Positions 18,380-25,764 of a stretch of 64,000 bases of DNA are shown piece by piece (position 1 is the first letter of the stretch; each line of letters starts with the position of its first letter). The notes under the pieces are model-generated. The model had not been told where the DNA came from. It worked only from the letters and a program-made list of their open reading frames with translations, and did not search any database. The stretch comes from Lactobacillus isalae. Lineage in GTDB: Bacteria > Bacillota > Bacilli > Lactobacillales > Lactobacillaceae. A program made the position numbers and the translations under genes. The stretch covers positions 682,001 to 746,000 of the forward strand of contig NZ_OX443569.1 of assembly GCF_947539375.1 (NCBI RefSeq), in the 5' to 3' direction.

Positions 18380-20055
18380 ATTTGAAGTCAGATATCGAAA
18401 TCGCACAAAGTACTAAGGAATTACCAATTACAGAAATTGCACAAAAGATTAATCTTCAACCAGATGAAATTGAACTCTATGGTAATGACAAGGCTAAGAT
18501 TAGCTGGAGTGGCATTAATCGAATTAAAAAGAATAAAAAGCTTGGAAAATTAATTCTAGTTACTTCGATTAGTCCAACTCCTGCTGGTGAAGGAAAATCA
18601 ACGATTACTATTGGCTTAGGGGATGCTATTAATAATCAACTTCATAAAAACACTTTAATTGCACTAAGAGAGCCCTCAATGGGACCTGTTTTTGGATTAA
18701 AGGGTGGAGCTACTGGTGGTGGATATGCACAAATTATCCCAATGGAAGATATCAACTTGCATTTTACTGGTGATATGCATGCGCTAACCAGTGCTATTGA
18801 TACTTTAGCTGCTCTAGTTGATAACTATATTTATCAGGATAATAGCCTAGAGCTAGATCCTAATCGTATTTTGTTAAAACGTGGAATTGACGTTAATGAT
18901 CGTACTTTAAGAAAAATCACTATCGGACAAGGTTCACGCTTTAATGGAATTGAGCATGAGGCTAGCTTTGCAATTACTGTAGCTAATGAATTAATGGCAA
19001 TTTTGTGTTTAGCAACTGATATTGATGATTTAAAGAAACGCATTGGAAATATTTTAGTTGGCTTTTCTGTTAAGGATGAACCTGTTTATGTTAAAGACTT
19101 AGGGTTTGAAGGAGCAATTGCTGCTTTACTATCAACTGCATTAAAGCCTAACCTAGTGCAAACACTTGAACACACTCCAGCGATTGTACATGGAGGACCA
19201 TTCGCAAATATTGCTCATGGTGCTAATTCAGTAATTGCTACTAATGCAGCTTTGCATTTGAGTGATTATGTTTTAACTGAGGCTGGTTTTGGCGCAGATC
19301 TCGGTGGTCAGAAATTTATGGATTTTGTTTCAAACCATTTAGACAAGCGTCCTGACGCAGTAGTCGTAGTAGCAACTGTGAGAGCTTTGAAGTATCAAGC
19401 AGAAGAAACTACTGATCATTTAGATGAAGAAAACATCCCTGCTCTAGAGAAGGGATTTGCTAATTTAAAACGTCATATGGAAAATATGGCTCATTATGGT
19501 GTACCTGTAATTGTATTGATTAACAAGTTTGCTAGTGATACTGATCAAGAACTAGCTAAACTAAAGGACCTTGTTCAAGACGATGGTTTTGAATGCGAAG
19601 TAGTATCCTACCATGATGAAGGTTCTAAAGGCGGGATTGAGGCAGCTGAAAAGGTGATTGAGTTAACTAATAAAGCTAGTGACTTTACATCTGTTTATGA
19701 GCCTAATGATTCTGTTGAAGAAAAGATCGCCAAAATTGCTCACAGTATTTATCACGCTAAAGATATTGAATATTCAGCTAAGGCTAAGAAGCAATTATCA
19801 GAAATTAAAAAGATGGGTAAGGATGAACTACCAGTAATTATTGCTAAGACGCAATATAGTTTTACTGATAAAAAGAAGATTTTAGGTGCACCAGAAGACT
19901 TTACTCTTCACGTTAAAGATCTGGCCCTTAAGAACGGAGCAGGTTTTATTGTGGTAGCAACTGGATCAATTTTAGATATGCCAGGACTGCCAAAACATCC
20001 AGCTGCTCTGGACATCGATGTAGACAATAGTGGAAAGATTTCAGGATTATTCTAA
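18376..20055 (+). CDS. fhs: Formate--tetrahydrofolate ligase
   Basis: 559 aa, full length. It makes 10-formyltetrahydrofolate from formate, THF and ATP for purine and formyl-Met synthesis. The P-loop TPAGEGKST is near 67, the [14 protein letters not shown] signature near 104 and [11 protein letters not shown] near 271. It overlaps the preceding gene by 4 bases and lspA by 1, so it is translated as part of an operon. Confidence 0.97.
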
Positions 20056-20519
20056 TGAGTAAAGCTAAACAGGCCTTATATTTAATAATTTCTTTACTTG
20101 TAGTTGCAGCCGACCAATGGTTAAAGAACTATATTGTTACTAATTTTAAAATTGGTGATGAGCAAACTGTTATTCCAGGAGTCTTATCGTTTACATATTT
20201 ACAAAATGATGGAGCAGCCTGGAACATTTTTAGCGGACAAATGATTTTATTTTATCTGATCAGTATTGCAGCAATTGCGGTTGTGATCTATTACCTTTTT
20301 AATCCTAAATATAAAAATGGACTCTTCGATACAGGTTTGGCTCTAGTTCTGGGTGGAATTATTGGTAATTTTATTGATCGATTACATTTAAAGTACGTAA
20401 TTGACATGCTGCAATTGGATTTTGTTCAATTTAACATTTTTAATATTGCTGACAGTGCAATTACAGTTGGAATTATCCTGGTGTTCATCTATTTAATTTT
20501 TATAAGTGAAAAAGACTAA
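20055..20519 (+). CDS. lspA: Lipoprotein signal peptidase (signal peptidase II)
   Basis: 154 aa with four membrane segments. It removes signal peptides from prolipoproteins. The catalytic aspartates sit in GNFIDRLH...VIDM and FNIADSAI; the conserved AADQWLKN segment is near residue 18. The ATG overlaps the fhs stop. lspA-rluD is conserved, and in Bacillus the pyr operon follows. Confidence 0.96.
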   Translation: MSKAKQALYLIISLLVVAADQWLKNYIVTNFKIGDEQTVIPGVLSFTYLQNDGAAWNIFSGQMILFYLISIAAIAVVIYYLFNPKYKNGLFDTGLALVLGGIIGNFIDRLHLKYVIDMLQLDFVQFNIFNIADSAITVGIILVFIYLIFISEKD

Positions 20520-20531
20520 AGGATGGGTTAA

Positions 20532-21446
20532 ATGACCAAAAGTTATCAATTAGTGATTGATGAAGAAAAGGGACGTTTGGATAAGGTAATCGCAGAGAAA
20601 ATTACAGATTTAAGCAGAACCAAAATCAAAGAATTAGTTAACGAAAAGAATATTTTAGTTAATGACCATGTAGAGAAAGTATCTTATAAAGTACAAGCTG
20701 GGGATGTAGTAGATATTACCGTTCCTCCGGTAAAACCATTGACTCTAGAAGCTCAAGATCTGCATTTAGATATTGTTTATGAAGATGCAGATGTGATTGT
20801 GGTTAATAAGCCTCAAGGGATGGTAGTTCACCCCTCTGCTGGTCATCCTGACCATACTTTGGTAAATGGATTGCTTTATCATACGCAAGACTTAGCGGAT
20901 AGTCCAGAAGGATTTCGCCCTGGTATTGTACATAGAATTGACAAAGATACTTCAGGCTTATTAATGGTAGCTAAGAACGATCGAGCACGTGAAAGTTTAG
21001 AAAAGCAGCTAGCAGAAAAAATAAATAAACGAGAATATTTAGCAATTGTTCACGGAAATTTTGAAACAAAAAATGGAGTTATTAATGCTCCGATTGGTAG
21101 AAATCCAAACAATCGAAAACAAATGGCAGTTAATCCTAAAGGGAAGGCTGCAGTAACCCATTTTACAGTTCTTGAACAATTTAAAAACTATAGTCTAGTT
21201 AAGTGTGTTCTTGAAACCGGTAGAACTCATCAAATTAGAGTTCATATGAAGTATATTGGACATCCCTTAGCTGGAGATCCTTTATATGGTCCTAAAAAGA
21301 CATTAGCTGGTCATGGACAATTTTTGCATGCCGAAACTTTGGGCTTTTATCAGCCATCTACAAATAAGTGGTTAGAATTTTCTACGCCACTACCAGAGAT
21401 TTTTGAAAAACAATTAGAGAATTTACGACGAGAAACGAAGCATTAA
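20532..21446 (+). CDS. rluD: RluA/RluD-family pseudouridine synthase
   Basis: 304 aa. An S4 RNA-binding domain (about 13-75) is followed by the catalytic domain with HRIDKDTSGLL near 135, which holds the active Asp, and GRTHQIRVH near 233. The usual target is large-subunit rRNA; the precise site is not readable. Homologue of Bacillus ylyB. carA begins 4 bases after its stop. Confidence 0.93.
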   Translation: MTKSYQLVIDEEKGRLDKVIAEKITDLSRTKIKELVNEKNILVNDHVEKVSYKVQAGDVVDITVPPVKPLTLEAQDLHLDIVYEDADVIVVNKPQGMVVHPSAGHPDHTLVNGLLYHTQDLADSPEGFRPGIVHRIDKDTSGLLMVAKNDRARESLEKQLAEKINKREYLAIVHGNFETKNGVINAPIGRNPNNRKQMAVNPKGKAAVTHFTVLEQFKNYSLVKCVLETGRTHQIRVHMKYIGHPLAGDPLYGPKKTLAGHGQFLHAETLGFYQPSTNKWLEFSTPLPEIFEKQLENLRRETKH

Positions 21447-21449
21447 TTT

Positions 21450-22505
21450 ATGAAACGATATTTGATTCTTGAAGACGGAACAGCTTTTTCGGGGCACGGT
21501 TTTGGAGCACCGATTACAGCAACGGGTGAGCTTGCTATTCAAACAAGTAACTTCGGATACCAGGAGGCAATTTCAGATCCTGCTAACTTTGGTAAAATTT
21601 TAGCTTTTACGACTCCGATGATTGGCGGAAGCGGAATTAATGCAATTGATTATGAATCAATTGATCCTAGTGTGCGTGGAATAATCGCTAACGATATTGC
21701 TTTTCATATTTCAGCAAATCCAACTTTTCAAGATTTAAATGATTTTCTAAAAGAGAAAAGAATACCAGCTATTTATGGCGTTGATACTCGAGCACTAGTT
21801 CAAAAATTAAAAAATAAACAAGTAATCAAAGCTTCTATTATGGATACAGACGATGCACATGCTTTTGATCAAATTAAAGCGCTAGTTTTACCTAAAAATA
21901 AGACAGCTCAAATTTCTACAAATCATCCTTATGCTGCTCCAAATGTTGGTAAAACTGTAGCTGTTATTGATTTAGGACTAAAGCATTCATTATTGCGTTC
22001 CTTATCTTTGCGTAAAATTAACAGTGTTGTATTGCCATATAATGCTTCAATTTATGACATTATCAATCTTCGGGCAGATGCAATCGTGATTTCTAATGGT
22101 CCAGGAAGAGTAGAAGAAGTTGCGCCGTTTTTAAAACCAGTATTTGATAAGTTCTATGGTAAATTGCCGATTTTAGGAATTGGATTAGGTTTTTTAGCAA
22201 TTAGCAATTACTTAGACTTAGAACTTTTAGACTTGATCCCAGCTTATAATGGCAGCAATTTTCCCGTTATTGAGCAAACTAATAATCGAATCTGGCAAAC
22301 TGCGATGAATATCGACCAATTGGTTGTTCCAGATAGTTTATCTTTAAACCTTTCACGTAAGTACTTTGACTTAAGATCAGATTTATTAGCTGGATACAGT
22401 ATTAAAGAAGATAAGGTTTTGGCAACAGCCTTTAATCCAGAAGGATCTCCTGGTAATTTTGATGCTGCTAGCATTTATGATCAGTTTATGAATATGATGG
22501 AGTAA
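21450..22505 (+). CDS. carA: CarA-like protein lacking the glutaminase catalytic residues
   Basis: 351 aa, co-linear with carbamoyl-phosphate synthase small subunit along its whole length (N-terminal domain about 1-150, class I amidotransferase domain 165-350). The nucleophile elbow normally GICLGHQ reads GIGLGF: the catalytic Cys is Gly245 (codon GGA at 22182-22184). The catalytic His is Asn329 in AFNPEGSPG, while Glu331 remains. Gln and His after the elbow and the QNHGY segment are also lost. Glutamine hydrolysis is therefore not expected. The frame has no stop or shift, so selection for another role is plausible. Co-transcribed with lspA-rluD and carB. Confidence 0.88.
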   Translation: MKRYLILEDGTAFSGHGFGAPITATGELAIQTSNFGYQEAISDPANFGKILAFTTPMIGGSGINAIDYESIDPSVRGIIANDIAFHISANPTFQDLNDFLKEKRIPAIYGVDTRALVQKLKNKQVIKASIMDTDDAHAFDQIKALVLPKNKTAQISTNHPYAAPNVGKTVAVIDLGLKHSLLRSLSLRKINSVVLPYNASIYDIINLRADAIVISNGPGRVEEVAPFLKPVFDKFYGKLPILGIGLGFLAISNYLDLELLDLIPAYNGSNFPVIEQTNNRIWQTAMNIDQLVVPDSLSLNLSRKYFDLRSDLLAGYSIKEDKVLATAFNPEGSPGNFDAASIYDQFMNMME

Positions 22506-22508
22506 AAT

Positions 22509-25500
22509 ATGCCTTTACATAATGAAATTAATAAGGTTCTGGTTATTGGGGCTGGACCAAGTATTGTTGGAGAGGTTTCAGAACTTGATATTCTTGCTAA
22601 ACAAGCTTTAGCTGCCTTTGAAGAAAGCAATGTTCAAGTTGTCTTAATTAACCCTAATCCTGCAACAATTACAACTGATCCACATCCTGATGTAAATGTA
22701 TATCTTGAACCAATGACGCTACCATTTGTGAAGCGAATTATTAGAATGGAAAAGCCGGATGCTATTATTCCAGCTTTTGGTGGAAAGCCAGCTTTAAGAT
22801 TAACGCAGGAGTTATTAGAGTCTGGTATCTTAACACAAATGAATATTGAGCTTTTAACTATTAATAGCTTAGCCTTAAGTTTATCAGCTCCGCATAATCT
22901 CTATACTTTTCTTAAAGCAAATAAGATTGCAGTTGCCAATCAATGGCTGCTGGAAAAAGAAGACGACTTACGTCGTGTAATTGAACATGCTCATTTTCCT
23001 TTGCTTTTATCTAAGAAACAACATTATCGACCAGATAGTATGATTTCTTTAGATAGTTTGGCTCAATTAGAAAGATATTTTTTAGACGAAGAAAGTGATG
23101 ATCATTTTAATTGGAAAGATTACCGTTTAACTGAAGATCTATCTAATTGGGAAGAATTAATTTTTGACATCGTCCGCGACAATAATGGTAATTTTTGTTT
23201 TGTTGGAAATACAGGTAGCTTAGAACCAGTTGGAATTAATTCCTCTGATTCACTATTAGTGACGCCAATTTTGACTAGAAATAATAATCAAATTCAAAAA
23301 TTAAGGAATTGTTGTCGTAAAATTGCAAATTGTCTCAATTTACATGGTGCATTAAGTATTCATTTTGCCGTTAAACAAAATGGAGAAGATTTTAACTATA
23401 AAGTCTTAAGTGTAAAACCACGTTTAACGCAGACTAGCTTACTTTCTTATAGAAGCGGCGTGTATTCCATTGGCTACATTACTGCCAAGATTGCTCTTGG
23501 ATATAACTTAAATGAAATTACCGATCCACAATCTGGAATCTCTGCTGCAGTTGATCCAGTGCAAGATGCATGTTTTGTAAAATTGCCTTATTGGTCCTTT
23601 ACTGAAGCGGGATACAACCATTATGCTTTGAATAATAAAACGACTTCTGGAGGACAAGCTTTAGGAATTGGTCGTAATTTTGAAAGTGCCTTTTTAAAGG
23701 CACTACAATCAACTACTGGTTTTTCTAATAATGTGAAGACCTTTAAAGAAGAATGTGATAAGAGTGAAGAGGAAATATTGCGGGATTTAAGCCAGCCTAA
23801 TGAAGTTCATTTGATTACGCTTTTAGCTGCTTTGGCTAAGGGTATTAGCTATCATACCTTACATAAGCTTTTACACGTACACCTAGTATTCTTACAGAAG
23901 TTTAATCACATTCTGATCTTATTGAAAAAACTGCAAAATGATGAATTAACTCCTGATTTAATGCTAAAAGTAAAGAAAAATGGCTTTTCTAATCGTTTAA
24001 TTGCTGAAGTTACTAAGCGAGATGAAAAAGCAATAACTGATTTATGTAAAAAGTGGTCCATCAAGCCAAGTTATATTGAAATTGACGGGACTGCTGGTTT
24101 AATTCATCCTAATGTTCAAGCCGTGTATAGTAGTTATGGTATTGAAGATGAAACAAAGCCACTGTCTAATTCAAAAAAATGTCTTCTTTTAGGTTTAAAG
24201 CCATTTCAGGTGTCCTTAACTGGAGAATTTGATTATATGCTCTACCATGCTGCTAAGACACTAAAAGAGCAGGGAATAAGTCCAGTGATTATTAGTAATA
24301 ATCCAGAAAGTGTTAGTGCTGCTTACGACTTATGTGATCGGGTTTATTTTGAACCAATTACATTAGAAAATATTCTTGAGATTGCCTGGAAAGAAGACAT
24401 TAAGGAAGTCGTAACTCAATTTTCTGGTAAACAAATTAATGAATACCGGATGCAGCTACTAGAACATGGGTTAACAATTTTAGGACAACCTAATTTGAAA
24501 GAAATTTTAGGAGAGAACCATGCTGATGTTGTATATCAGGCTGGCGTTAATCCTGTTCCTGCACTTCAATGCGATAGCGAAGAAAATGTCTTAGAATTTG
24601 TAAATACAAATGGGTTTCCTGCTTTAATTGGTGGCACAAGCAATGGTAAGAAACAAAAATCTGCCGTTGTATTTGATTTACCAGCTCTACAGAGATATAT
24701 TGCGGAAAATTCATTAGAGCACATGACTGTCTCTAAATTTATTGAAGGTAAAAAATACGAAGTAACTGCAATTTCAGATGGTAAAAATGTTACTATTCCA
24801 GGAATTATTGAACATTTTGAACAGACCGGTTCTCACGCCAGTGATTCAATCGCTGTTTATCGACCACAAAATTTATCGACTAATGATCAAAGGCGATTAC
24901 GTGATAGTGCCATTAGTATTGCAACTAAGCTCCATTTAAGAGGTCCGGTAAATCTACACTTTTTATTGGCTCATGATCAAATATATTTGTTACAGATGAA
25001 AAGCTATTCAGGGCACAATGTTGCCTTTTTAACTAAGGCTCTTAAAAAAGATATTACTGCCATCACAATGAAAGTTTTATTGGGCAGTGAATTATCGGAC
25101 TTAGAATTGTCTAGTGACATTTGGCCATCAAATAATCTGATCCATGTAAAAATGCCTGTATTCTCGTATTTATCATATCAAAGTGAAAATACCTTTGATT
25201 CTAAAATGAAGACGTCTGGAAGCGTAATGGGGCGTGCTAAGCATTTACCGACTGCTTTATTTAAAGGATATGAAGGTAGCGACTTAATGATCTCAACTTA
25301 TGGGACAGTCTTCATTTCAGTTAAAGACTCTGAAAAAAATGATGCAATTAAAATAGCTGCTAGATTCCATCAATTAGGCTTTAAATTGTTAGCAACTGAA
25401 GGAACAGCAAATGTTCTAGCTGAAGAAGGGATTACAACTGGAATTATTGGAAAAGTTCAAGAGGGCAGCAATAGTCTACTTGAAAAAATTAAGCAGCATC

Positions 25501-25673
25501 GAATCAATCTGGTTATTAATGTGACAAGTTTATCTGATTCAGCTAGCCACGATGCAATCATGATTAAAGATGCAGCTTTAAGCACGCATATTCCTGTTTT
25601 CTCTAGTTTGCAATCAGCTCAAGACGTGTTAACAGTACTTGAAACATTGGCAATGACTACACAGCCTTTATAA
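22509..25673 (+). CDS. carB: CarB-like protein with degenerate ATP-grasp sites and intact MGS domain
   Basis: 1054 aa, full-length architecture of carbamoyl-phosphate synthase large subunit. N half: GAGPSIVGEVSELD kept, but family Gln285 is His285, the metal ligands of EMNPR are Ser301 and Lys303 (SVKPR), and the Arg/Gly-rich loop near 168 is lost. C half: RPSYVLGG is GGTSNG (708 on), the Gln before FAV is His817, and EVNPR reads QMKSY (Gln829, Lys831). The C-terminal MGS-like allosteric domain (about 932-1054, GTVFISVKD, ATEGTANVL) looks ordinary. Both phosphorylation sites appear inactive. ATG lies 4 bases after the carA stop. Confidence 0.88.
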   Translation: MPLHNEINKVLVIGAGPSIVGEVSELDILAKQALAAFEESNVQVVLINPNPATITTDPHPDVNVYLEPMTLPFVKRIIRMEKPDAIIPAFGGKPALRLTQELLESGILTQMNIELLTINSLALSLSAPHNLYTFLKANKIAVANQWLLEKEDDLRRVIEHAHFPLLLSKKQHYRPDSMISLDSLAQLERYFLDEESDDHFNWKDYRLTEDLSNWEELIFDIVRDNNGNFCFVGNTGSLEPVGINSSDSLLVTPILTRNNNQIQKLRNCCRKIANCLNLHGALSIHFAVKQNGEDFNYKVLSVKPRLTQTSLLSYRSGVYSIGYITAKIALGYNLNEITDPQSGISAAVDPVQDACFVKLPYWSFTEAGYNHYALNNKTTSGGQALGIGRNFESAFLKALQSTTGFSNNVKTFKEECDKSEEEILRDLSQPNEVHLITLLAALAKGISYHTLHKLLHVHLVFLQKFNHILILLKKLQNDELTPDLMLKVKKNGFSNRLIAEVTKRDEKAITDLCKKWSIKPSYIEIDGTAGLIHPNVQAVYSSYGIEDETKPLSNSKKCLLLGLKPFQVSLTGEFDYMLYHAAKTLKEQGISPVIISNNPESVSAAYDLCDRVYFEPITLENILEIAWKEDIKEVVTQFSGKQINEYRMQLLEHGLTILGQPNLKEILGENHADVVYQAGVNPVPALQCDSEENVLEFVNTNGFPALIGGTSNGKKQKSAVVFDLPALQRYIAENSLEHMTVSKFIEGKKYEVTAISDGKNVTIPGIIEHFEQTGSHASDSIAVYRPQNLSTNDQRRLRDSAISIATKLHLRGPVNLHFLLAHDQIYLLQMKSYSGHNVAFLTKALKKDITAITMKVLLGSELSDLELSSDIWPSNNLIHVKMPVFSYLSYQSENTFDSKMKTSGSVMGRAKHLPTALFKGYEGSDLMISTYGTVFISVKDSEKNDAIKIAARFHQLGFKLLATEGTANVLAEEGITTGIIGKVQEGSNSLLEKIKQHRINLVINVTSLSDSASHDAIMIKDAALSTHIPVFSSLQSAQDVLTVLETLAMTTQPL

Positions 25674-25711: not shown

Positions 25712-25764
25712 AAAAAGCTCAATTTATAGAAAACTTTTGAAATTCTATAAGTTGAGCTTTTTTT
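25712..25764. terminator. Bidirectional terminator between carB and rqcH
   Basis: An 18-bp stem of AAAGCTCAA...TTATAGAA type with an 11-base loop and T run (arms about 25713-25731 and 25743-25761). It can serve both convergent genes. Confidence 0.9.

Follow-up and report, generated by a model that had tools for sequence, protein, structure and literature searches.

Bacterial pseudoenzymes generally keep the fold of an enzyme and lose the residues that define its catalysis, while their genes remain under purifying selection. We know of no bacterial pseudoenzyme derived from carbamoyl-phosphate synthase (CPS), and a search of open-licence papers turned up none that describes a dead bacterial CPS. 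One abstract reportedly writes pyrR1BCAa1Ab1DFE, which implies that a second pair, Aa2Ab2, is known in Lactiplantibacillus plantarum. The closest described systems are the glutamine-dependent CarAB enzymes, represented by those of Escherichia coli (PDB entries 1BXR and 1JDB) and of the pyr operons of lactobacilli, and the pyrR-linked second carAB of L. plantarum and its relatives. A review describes Cys269 and His353 as essential for glutamine hydrolysis by CarA, and Thr977 and Lys993 as crucial for inhibition by, and binding of, uridine monophosphate (UMP; PMC6245113). Here we analyse a carA-carB pair, designated carA'-carB', in a 64,000-nucleotide stretch of the Lactobacillus isalae genome (the window). 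An initial annotation, made from the sequence alone, had proposed that it encodes a retained pseudoenzyme complex. Judged from alignments across the genus, the pair is almost certainly conserved and without the residues of catalysis.

Catalytic residues and selection in CarA' and CarB'

The two genes lie on the plus strand of the window, as do the residue positions given below. The small-subunit gene carA' (21450..22505) encodes 351 amino acids and the large-subunit gene carB' (22509..25673) encodes 1054. The open reading frames (ORFs) are 3 bases apart and neither has an internal stop, so that the initial annotation was correct in describing 4.2 kb of frame without stop or shift and a coupled pair. 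The full domain architecture of CPS is present: CarA' matches PF00988 and PF00117, CarB' matches PF25596, PF02786, PF02787 and PF02142, and alignments to PDB entries span most of both chains. CarA' and CarB' also pass the CPS equivalog models NF009475 (419 bits against a cut-off of 221) and NF003671 (668 against 599), which is a likely source of wrong annotation; they score below the cut-offs of TIGR01368 (248.8 against 307.35) and TIGR01369 (645.3 against 1027). Metabolic reconstructions may consequently credit species that lack the pathway with carbamoyl-phosphate synthesis. The window pair shares with canonical CarAB this architecture, the coupled gene order, and an MGS-like allosteric domain containing equivalents of Thr977 and Lys993. 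It differs in the positions of Cys269, Gln273 and His353, in the metal-ligand positions of both ATP-grasp halves, and in its location outside the pyr operon.

Residues were compared by alignment with nine canonical copies of the genus, one of them from the window genome itself. In CarA', Gly245 (codon GGA, 22182..22184) replaces the catalytic Cys (E. coli Cys269) and Asn329 (22434..22436) replaces the catalytic His (E. coli His353). Two further glutamines are replaced, one adjoining the catalytic Cys by Leu249, at the position of E. coli Gln273, and another by Ala327. All four replacements occur in 73 of 73 genomes. In CarB', both ATP-grasp halves have lost the Gln, Glu and Asn ligands of metal and adenosine triphosphate (ATP). 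The first half has His285, Ser301 and Lys303 in their place (23361..23417; His in 72/73 genomes, Ser or Thr in 61/73, Lys or Arg in 69/73), and the second has His817, Gln829 and Lys831 (24957..25001; His in 70/72, Gln and Lys each in 72/72, with a gap in one more row). The second half has also gained Lys749 (73/73) and His836 (72/72). These alignments bear out every replacement named in the initial annotation. Its summary that all catalytic sites are degraded is too strong residue by residue, since CarA' retains Glu331 (the position of E. coli Glu355), Lys178 and Gly219, and CarB' retains Glu216 (E215; 71/73), Arg305 (R303; 72/73) and His776 (H788; 73/73). Because the exchanges of Gln for His and of Asn for Lys recur in both ATP-grasp halves, a positive side chain stands at the former metal-ligand place, and this may permit ligand binding without metal.

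The MGS-like domain comprises residues 932-1054 of CarB' (25302..25670; PF02142). Thr966 and Lys982 occupy the positions of E. coli Thr977 and Lys993 and are Thr and Lys in 71 of 71 genus rows, two more rows having gaps there. A predicted structure of CarB', computed from an alignment with 21 other rows, has a mean predicted local distance difference test score (pLDDT) of 72.4 and a predicted template modelling score (pTM) of 0.74. The pLDDT is below 50 over most of the MGS domain and in part of ATP-grasp 2, where the other rows have scant or no counterpart, and the pockets cannot be read from the model.

We searched 75 genomes of the genus and retrieved 72 loci, with flanks, besides that of the window. 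CarA' is present at 58% identity or more in 73/75 genomes; the two in which it was not found are 59% and 76% complete. Its frame is open in all 73, a contig end having removed the first residues of one. A full-length CarB' is present in 71/73, the remaining two running off a contig (G039) or broken near the C-terminus (G016). Since many of the new residues at these sites are themselves invariant or nearly so in these genomes, the substitutions are not chance events. The glycine at position 245 is a clear case: it is invariant yet written with all four codons (GGC 25, GGA 21, GGT 19, GGG 8), which indicates that the new residue is selected as an amino acid. The ratio of nonsynonymous to synonymous substitution (dN/dS; Nei-Gojobori method, pairs with dS between 0.05 and 1) has a median of 0.029 for CarA' (41 pairs) and 0.056 for CarB' (30 pairs), far below 1, and the frames are free of random stops. 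Catalytic residues have thus been lost throughout the orthologues of the genus under purifying selection on the protein, as in other bacterial pseudoenzymes. Together with the fixed new residues and with retention where the de novo genes tested are gone (see below), these data strongly support the pseudoenzyme assignment.

Conservation is uneven along the two chains. Near-invariant columns make up 47% of the N-terminal domain of CarA' and 26% of its GATase-like domain. The corresponding values in CarB' are 36% for MGS, 32% for pre-ATP-grasp 1, 31% for ATP-grasp 2, 25% for pre-ATP-grasp 2, 20% for ATP-grasp 1 and 6% for the oligomerisation domain. Within ATP-grasp 2, 83 of 264 columns are near-invariant, and 43 of them carry a residue unseen in seven pyr-type canonical copies. 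With the window genome (G000) and two divergent canonical copies set aside, CarA' and canonical CarA diverge at about the same slow pace, and CarB' changes in amino-acid sequence 1.5-2.5 times as much as canonical CarB between pyr-type genome pairs. The ratios of dead to canonical divergence become much larger once G000 is included, which we ascribe to lateral transfer of its pyr operon.

Retention of the pair outside the pyrimidine pathway

A canonical carAB is present elsewhere in the same genome, in a pyr operon at C1:594-602 kb with the order pyrD-pyrR-pyrB-pyrC-carA-carB-pyrR (names by NCBIfam) and a PyrR binding site (RF00515). Identity between the window pair and this copy is 35% for CarA and 29% for CarB. 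The canonical subunits (L003:3927-8196) are 89-94% identical to those of three relatives (G003, G010 and G072), while the same comparison gives 67-69% for CarA', 49-51% for CarB' and 34-77% for the neighbours of the dead pair. On the strength of this disparity, the pyr operon of the window genome was probably acquired by lateral transfer. Its two pyrR genes, before pyrB (L003:984-1550) and after carB (L003:8224-8760), are 67% identical, and the second is broken in a relative (G033).

The dead pair persists irrespective of the canonical genes. In a set of 60 high-quality genus genomes, canonical CarA is missing from 14, PyrB from 13 and PyrR from 7, and it is these 7 that have none of the three. 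CarA' is kept in 60/60 and an unbroken CarB' in 59/60, including all 7 of these genomes. Two sisters from this group (G038 and G043) have dN/dS values of 0.05 for CarA' and 0.07 for CarB', at a dS near saturation, and no relative of uracil permease was found in either at the cut-off used. Protection of the dead copy even where the working enzyme has been lost suggests that it probably has a different job, such as nucleotide sensing. In two other genomes that keep CarA', pyrB itself contains stop codons (G008:C1:387499-388116 and G028:C31:20084-21032).

Distribution and number of origins

We surveyed 397 genomes, a sample of a larger group, reading CarA from one to three genomes in each of 39 other genera of Lactobacillaceae. 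With the window genus included, dead CarA was found in 34 of 40 genera. In a large group of lactic acid bacteria, what was a two-subunit enzyme of central metabolism is now a dead but protected pair. The few genomes read from the other six genera (g12, g13, g26, g30, g31 and g32) gave canonical CarA alone, with a second CarA match in G139 left unread. The catalytic Cys is Gly in 33 of the 34 genera; the exception (G107, genus g34) retains Cys and has Leu for His and Asn for Glu. In 29 of the 33 other genera with a dead copy, carA' is preceded, at a distance of no more than one gene, by a gene for PyrR, uracil permease or both; neither was found so close upstream in g3, g6, g18 and g34. The permease passes the NCS2 family cut-off and fails the uracil-permease cut-off. 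PyrR boxes (RF00515) were found at 3/12 and 2/13, or 5/25, of the dead loci scanned outside the window.

The L. plantarum-type pairs were examined in a scan of named genomes with the dead-CarA alignment. We took the best 80 of 234 relatives, a choice by similarity to dead copies that measures breadth and not frequency. They span Lactiplantibacillus, Secundilactobacillus, Paucilactobacillus, Levilactobacillus, Limosilactobacillus, Pediococcus and a few unclassified records. These pairs share with the window the lspA-rluD locus, the exchange of Cys for Gly (80/80) and a dead CarB. They differ in having Glu for Gln and Phe for His (both 80/80), pyrR upstream in 61/80, and a shorter CarB', encoded by one ORF of 817-901 amino acids in 78/80, with another (L274) cut by a contig end. 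The three such CarB' proteins that were checked lack canonical residues 652-702, about 709-737, and all from 917-939 onwards. The MGS domain and a portion of ATP-grasp 2 are missing from these three, in contrast to the window protein.

A second family (f4) also contains dead copies. In its genus g43, a CarA match occurs in 108 of 118 genomes. Of the 30 best-scoring loci, which were read, 7 have Gly for the catalytic Cys and 23 are canonical. Those 7 loci have the order pyrR-pyrB-carA'-carB', with a single CarA match per genome, and G457 provides an eighth case. CarB' of G449 and G457 is 579 amino acids long and lacks MGS, and both loci have a PyrR box. Loci L281 and L286 of this family show either that order or pyrR-dehydrogenase-like-carA'-carB', again with the half-length CarB of 579 amino acids and a PyrR box.

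In phylogenies of CarA, two of the dead copies, from G096 and G107, branch among canonical sequences. In approximately unbiased (AU) tests of all dead rows as one clade, p was 0.0393 for all 45 rows and 0.00891 for the 43 rows of Lactobacillaceae, a rejection in the latter case. The value for Lactobacillaceae rose to 0.127 without G107, 0.133 without G096 and 0.452 without both (41 rows), and these 41 could form a single clade. The starred branches of the tree demand at least three changes. In a quick tree the dead rows of the second family adjoin other dead rows. Once canonical f4 rows were added, a constraint joining dead and canonical f4 rows reached a log-likelihood 56 above the free search (p-AU 0.968), and separate decay in the second family is favoured. 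That a constrained tree outscores the free one means that the quick searches were not optimal and that the AU p-values are rough; long branches and groups chosen after the fact are further limits. Because the groups were named after the tree had been seen, our claim is confined to at least two catalytic decays, which the trees support, with a third origin likely.

From the genus, the family alignments and trees took in 9 of 73 dead rows and 4 of 9 canonical rows. Two rows under 300 amino acids (G137 and the second copy of G094) were dropped from the first tree. The second tree used one more genus row, 23 of 60 loci and 6 of the 80 named loci, and omitted G137, G083, G061_can and the second copy of G194. 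Nine further near-duplicate rows were dropped from the tree with canonical second-family rows.

Candidate roles and genomic surroundings

We tentatively favour the interpretation that CarA'-CarB' is a catalytically dead CPS paralogue that forms a complex responsive to nucleotides, with a regulatory or scaffolding role. This choice is guided by the retention in the genus of MGS and of the Thr977 and Lys993 equivalents, and by the conserved domains; assembly, ligand, partner and target are all inferred. In such a mechanism, CarA' and CarB' would still form a CarA-CarB particle, and in the window genus the MGS domain would be the binding site of UMP or a related nucleotide. The ATP-grasp 2 pocket, with its metal ligands lost and invariant Lys, His and Gln gained, would hold a ligand without turnover. 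CarA', whose N-terminal domain is more conserved than any other part of the pair, would serve as the read-out of the bound state. Because pyrR adjoins the pair in most other genera and uracil permease in several, the signal is probably pyrimidine status, and in the window genus the pair could act without PyrR.

Several observations weigh against this interpretation. Neither a pyrR neighbour nor a PyrR box (RF00515) was found at the window locus. The MGS domain is absent from dead CarB in many other genera as well as from the 579-residue version, so that UMP sensing through MGS is not a function common to all, and the mechanism may differ between versions. The equivalent of Lys993 is replaced in G107, G131, G095 and G088. 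The shorter CarB versions keep ATP-grasp 1 and the oligomerisation domain, which are the fastest-drifting parts in the window genus, and this too argues against a single shared mechanism. Two broken copies of CarB', each either real or a sequencing error, belong here as well: in L060 (G016) the gene is split into ORFs of 966 and 99 amino acids, and in L229, one of the 80 named loci, it lies in four pieces. Finally, the glutamine site of CarA' is mostly lost, with Leu at Gln273, Thr or Ala at Ser47 (E. coli numbering) and Gly313 mostly changed. The same losses weaken the idea of a glutamine sensor, which was suggested by an E. coli H353N mutant that is said to still bind glutamine.

Taken more broadly, CPS may have given rise on at least two occasions, and probably on a third in the second family, to a non-catalytic sensor complex associated with PyrR and uracil-permease operons, one that reads pyrimidine nucleotides or inorganic carbon and has outlived PyrR and the pathway in some members of the genus. 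We regard this wider scenario as possible and more speculative than the dead regulatory complex itself. Decay in more than one lineage, several of them linked to PyrR, has produced both full-length and truncated versions, a natural series with which to locate the part of CPS needed for regulation.

A related but unlikely alternative is that PyrR or PyrR2 has the dead pair as an accessory subunit, one that senses bicarbonate or CO2 (the substrate that CPS uses first) or nucleotides and directs PyrR-dependent attenuation of the pyr operon. The arrangement in L. plantarum speaks for it, since at locus L209 the order is lspA-rluD-pyrR-carA'-carB', with pyrR directly upstream of the dead pair as in most of the named loci. 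In one paper lp_1782 bears the name pyrR2 (PMC7911632), and PyrR2 is reported to control the L. plantarum pyr operon by inorganic carbon. The pyrR of L209 is probably lp_1782, that is, PyrR2. The dead pair is a specific candidate for the sensor that underlies PyrR2 action and the CO2-dependent growth of lactobacilli. Against it, pyrR is not at the window locus. The 7 of 60 high-quality genomes that keep the pair without PyrR show that this link cannot be the whole role in the window genus, and we reject a PyrR co-factor as the sole role there.

A new enzyme, whose rebuilt ATP-grasp 2 site would carry out another reaction with little or no metal, seems distinctly improbable. It would account for the many near-invariant columns of ATP-grasp 2 that carry new residues, Lys749, Lys831 and His836 among them, but the three metal-ligand positions of that half are replaced, and the three shorter versions checked have lost canonical 652-702, about 709-737 and the C-terminal domain. 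There is little reason to expect that dead subunits join canonical CarAB and tune its activity through mixed complexes. The coexistence of dead and canonical copies in 46 of the 60 high-quality genomes speaks for it, but the 14 without canonical CarA keep dead CarA, a finding that excludes regulation of the canonical enzyme as the sole role, and identity to the canonical subunits is low. A decaying, functionless relic or an assembly artefact can be dismissed, for although the catalytic residues are gone and CarB' changes faster than canonical CarB, the low dN/dS, the invariant new residues, the scrambled codons of the invariant Gly and the intact frames in 73 genomes contrast with the pyrB stops of G008 and G028.

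The surroundings of the pair are conserved in the genus. The order lspA-rluD-carA'-carB' is found in 71 of the 72 retrieved loci, the contig of the other (G031) beginning inside carA'; an additional ORF lies between rluD and carA' in two. The rluD-like gene of the window (20532..21446, plus strand) ends 3 bases before carA' and scores above the cut-off of the RluA family model TIGR00005 and below that of the RluD model. Upstream of it is an ORF (20055..20519, plus strand) without an NCBIfam match at 1e-30, which we presume to be lspA; the labels fbpA, marR and degV are likewise our assumption. The convergent fbpA/rqcH-like gene matches the NCBIfam models EfbA and RqcH, both below cut-off. Between it and carB' lies a 20-bp hairpin (25712..25762; folding energy -26.5 kcal/mol, z -5.5). 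The output of a simple terminator scan, which allows loops of at most 8, does not include it; it is a possible terminator for both genes. An fbpA-like gene follows carB' in 66 of the 72 retrieved loci.

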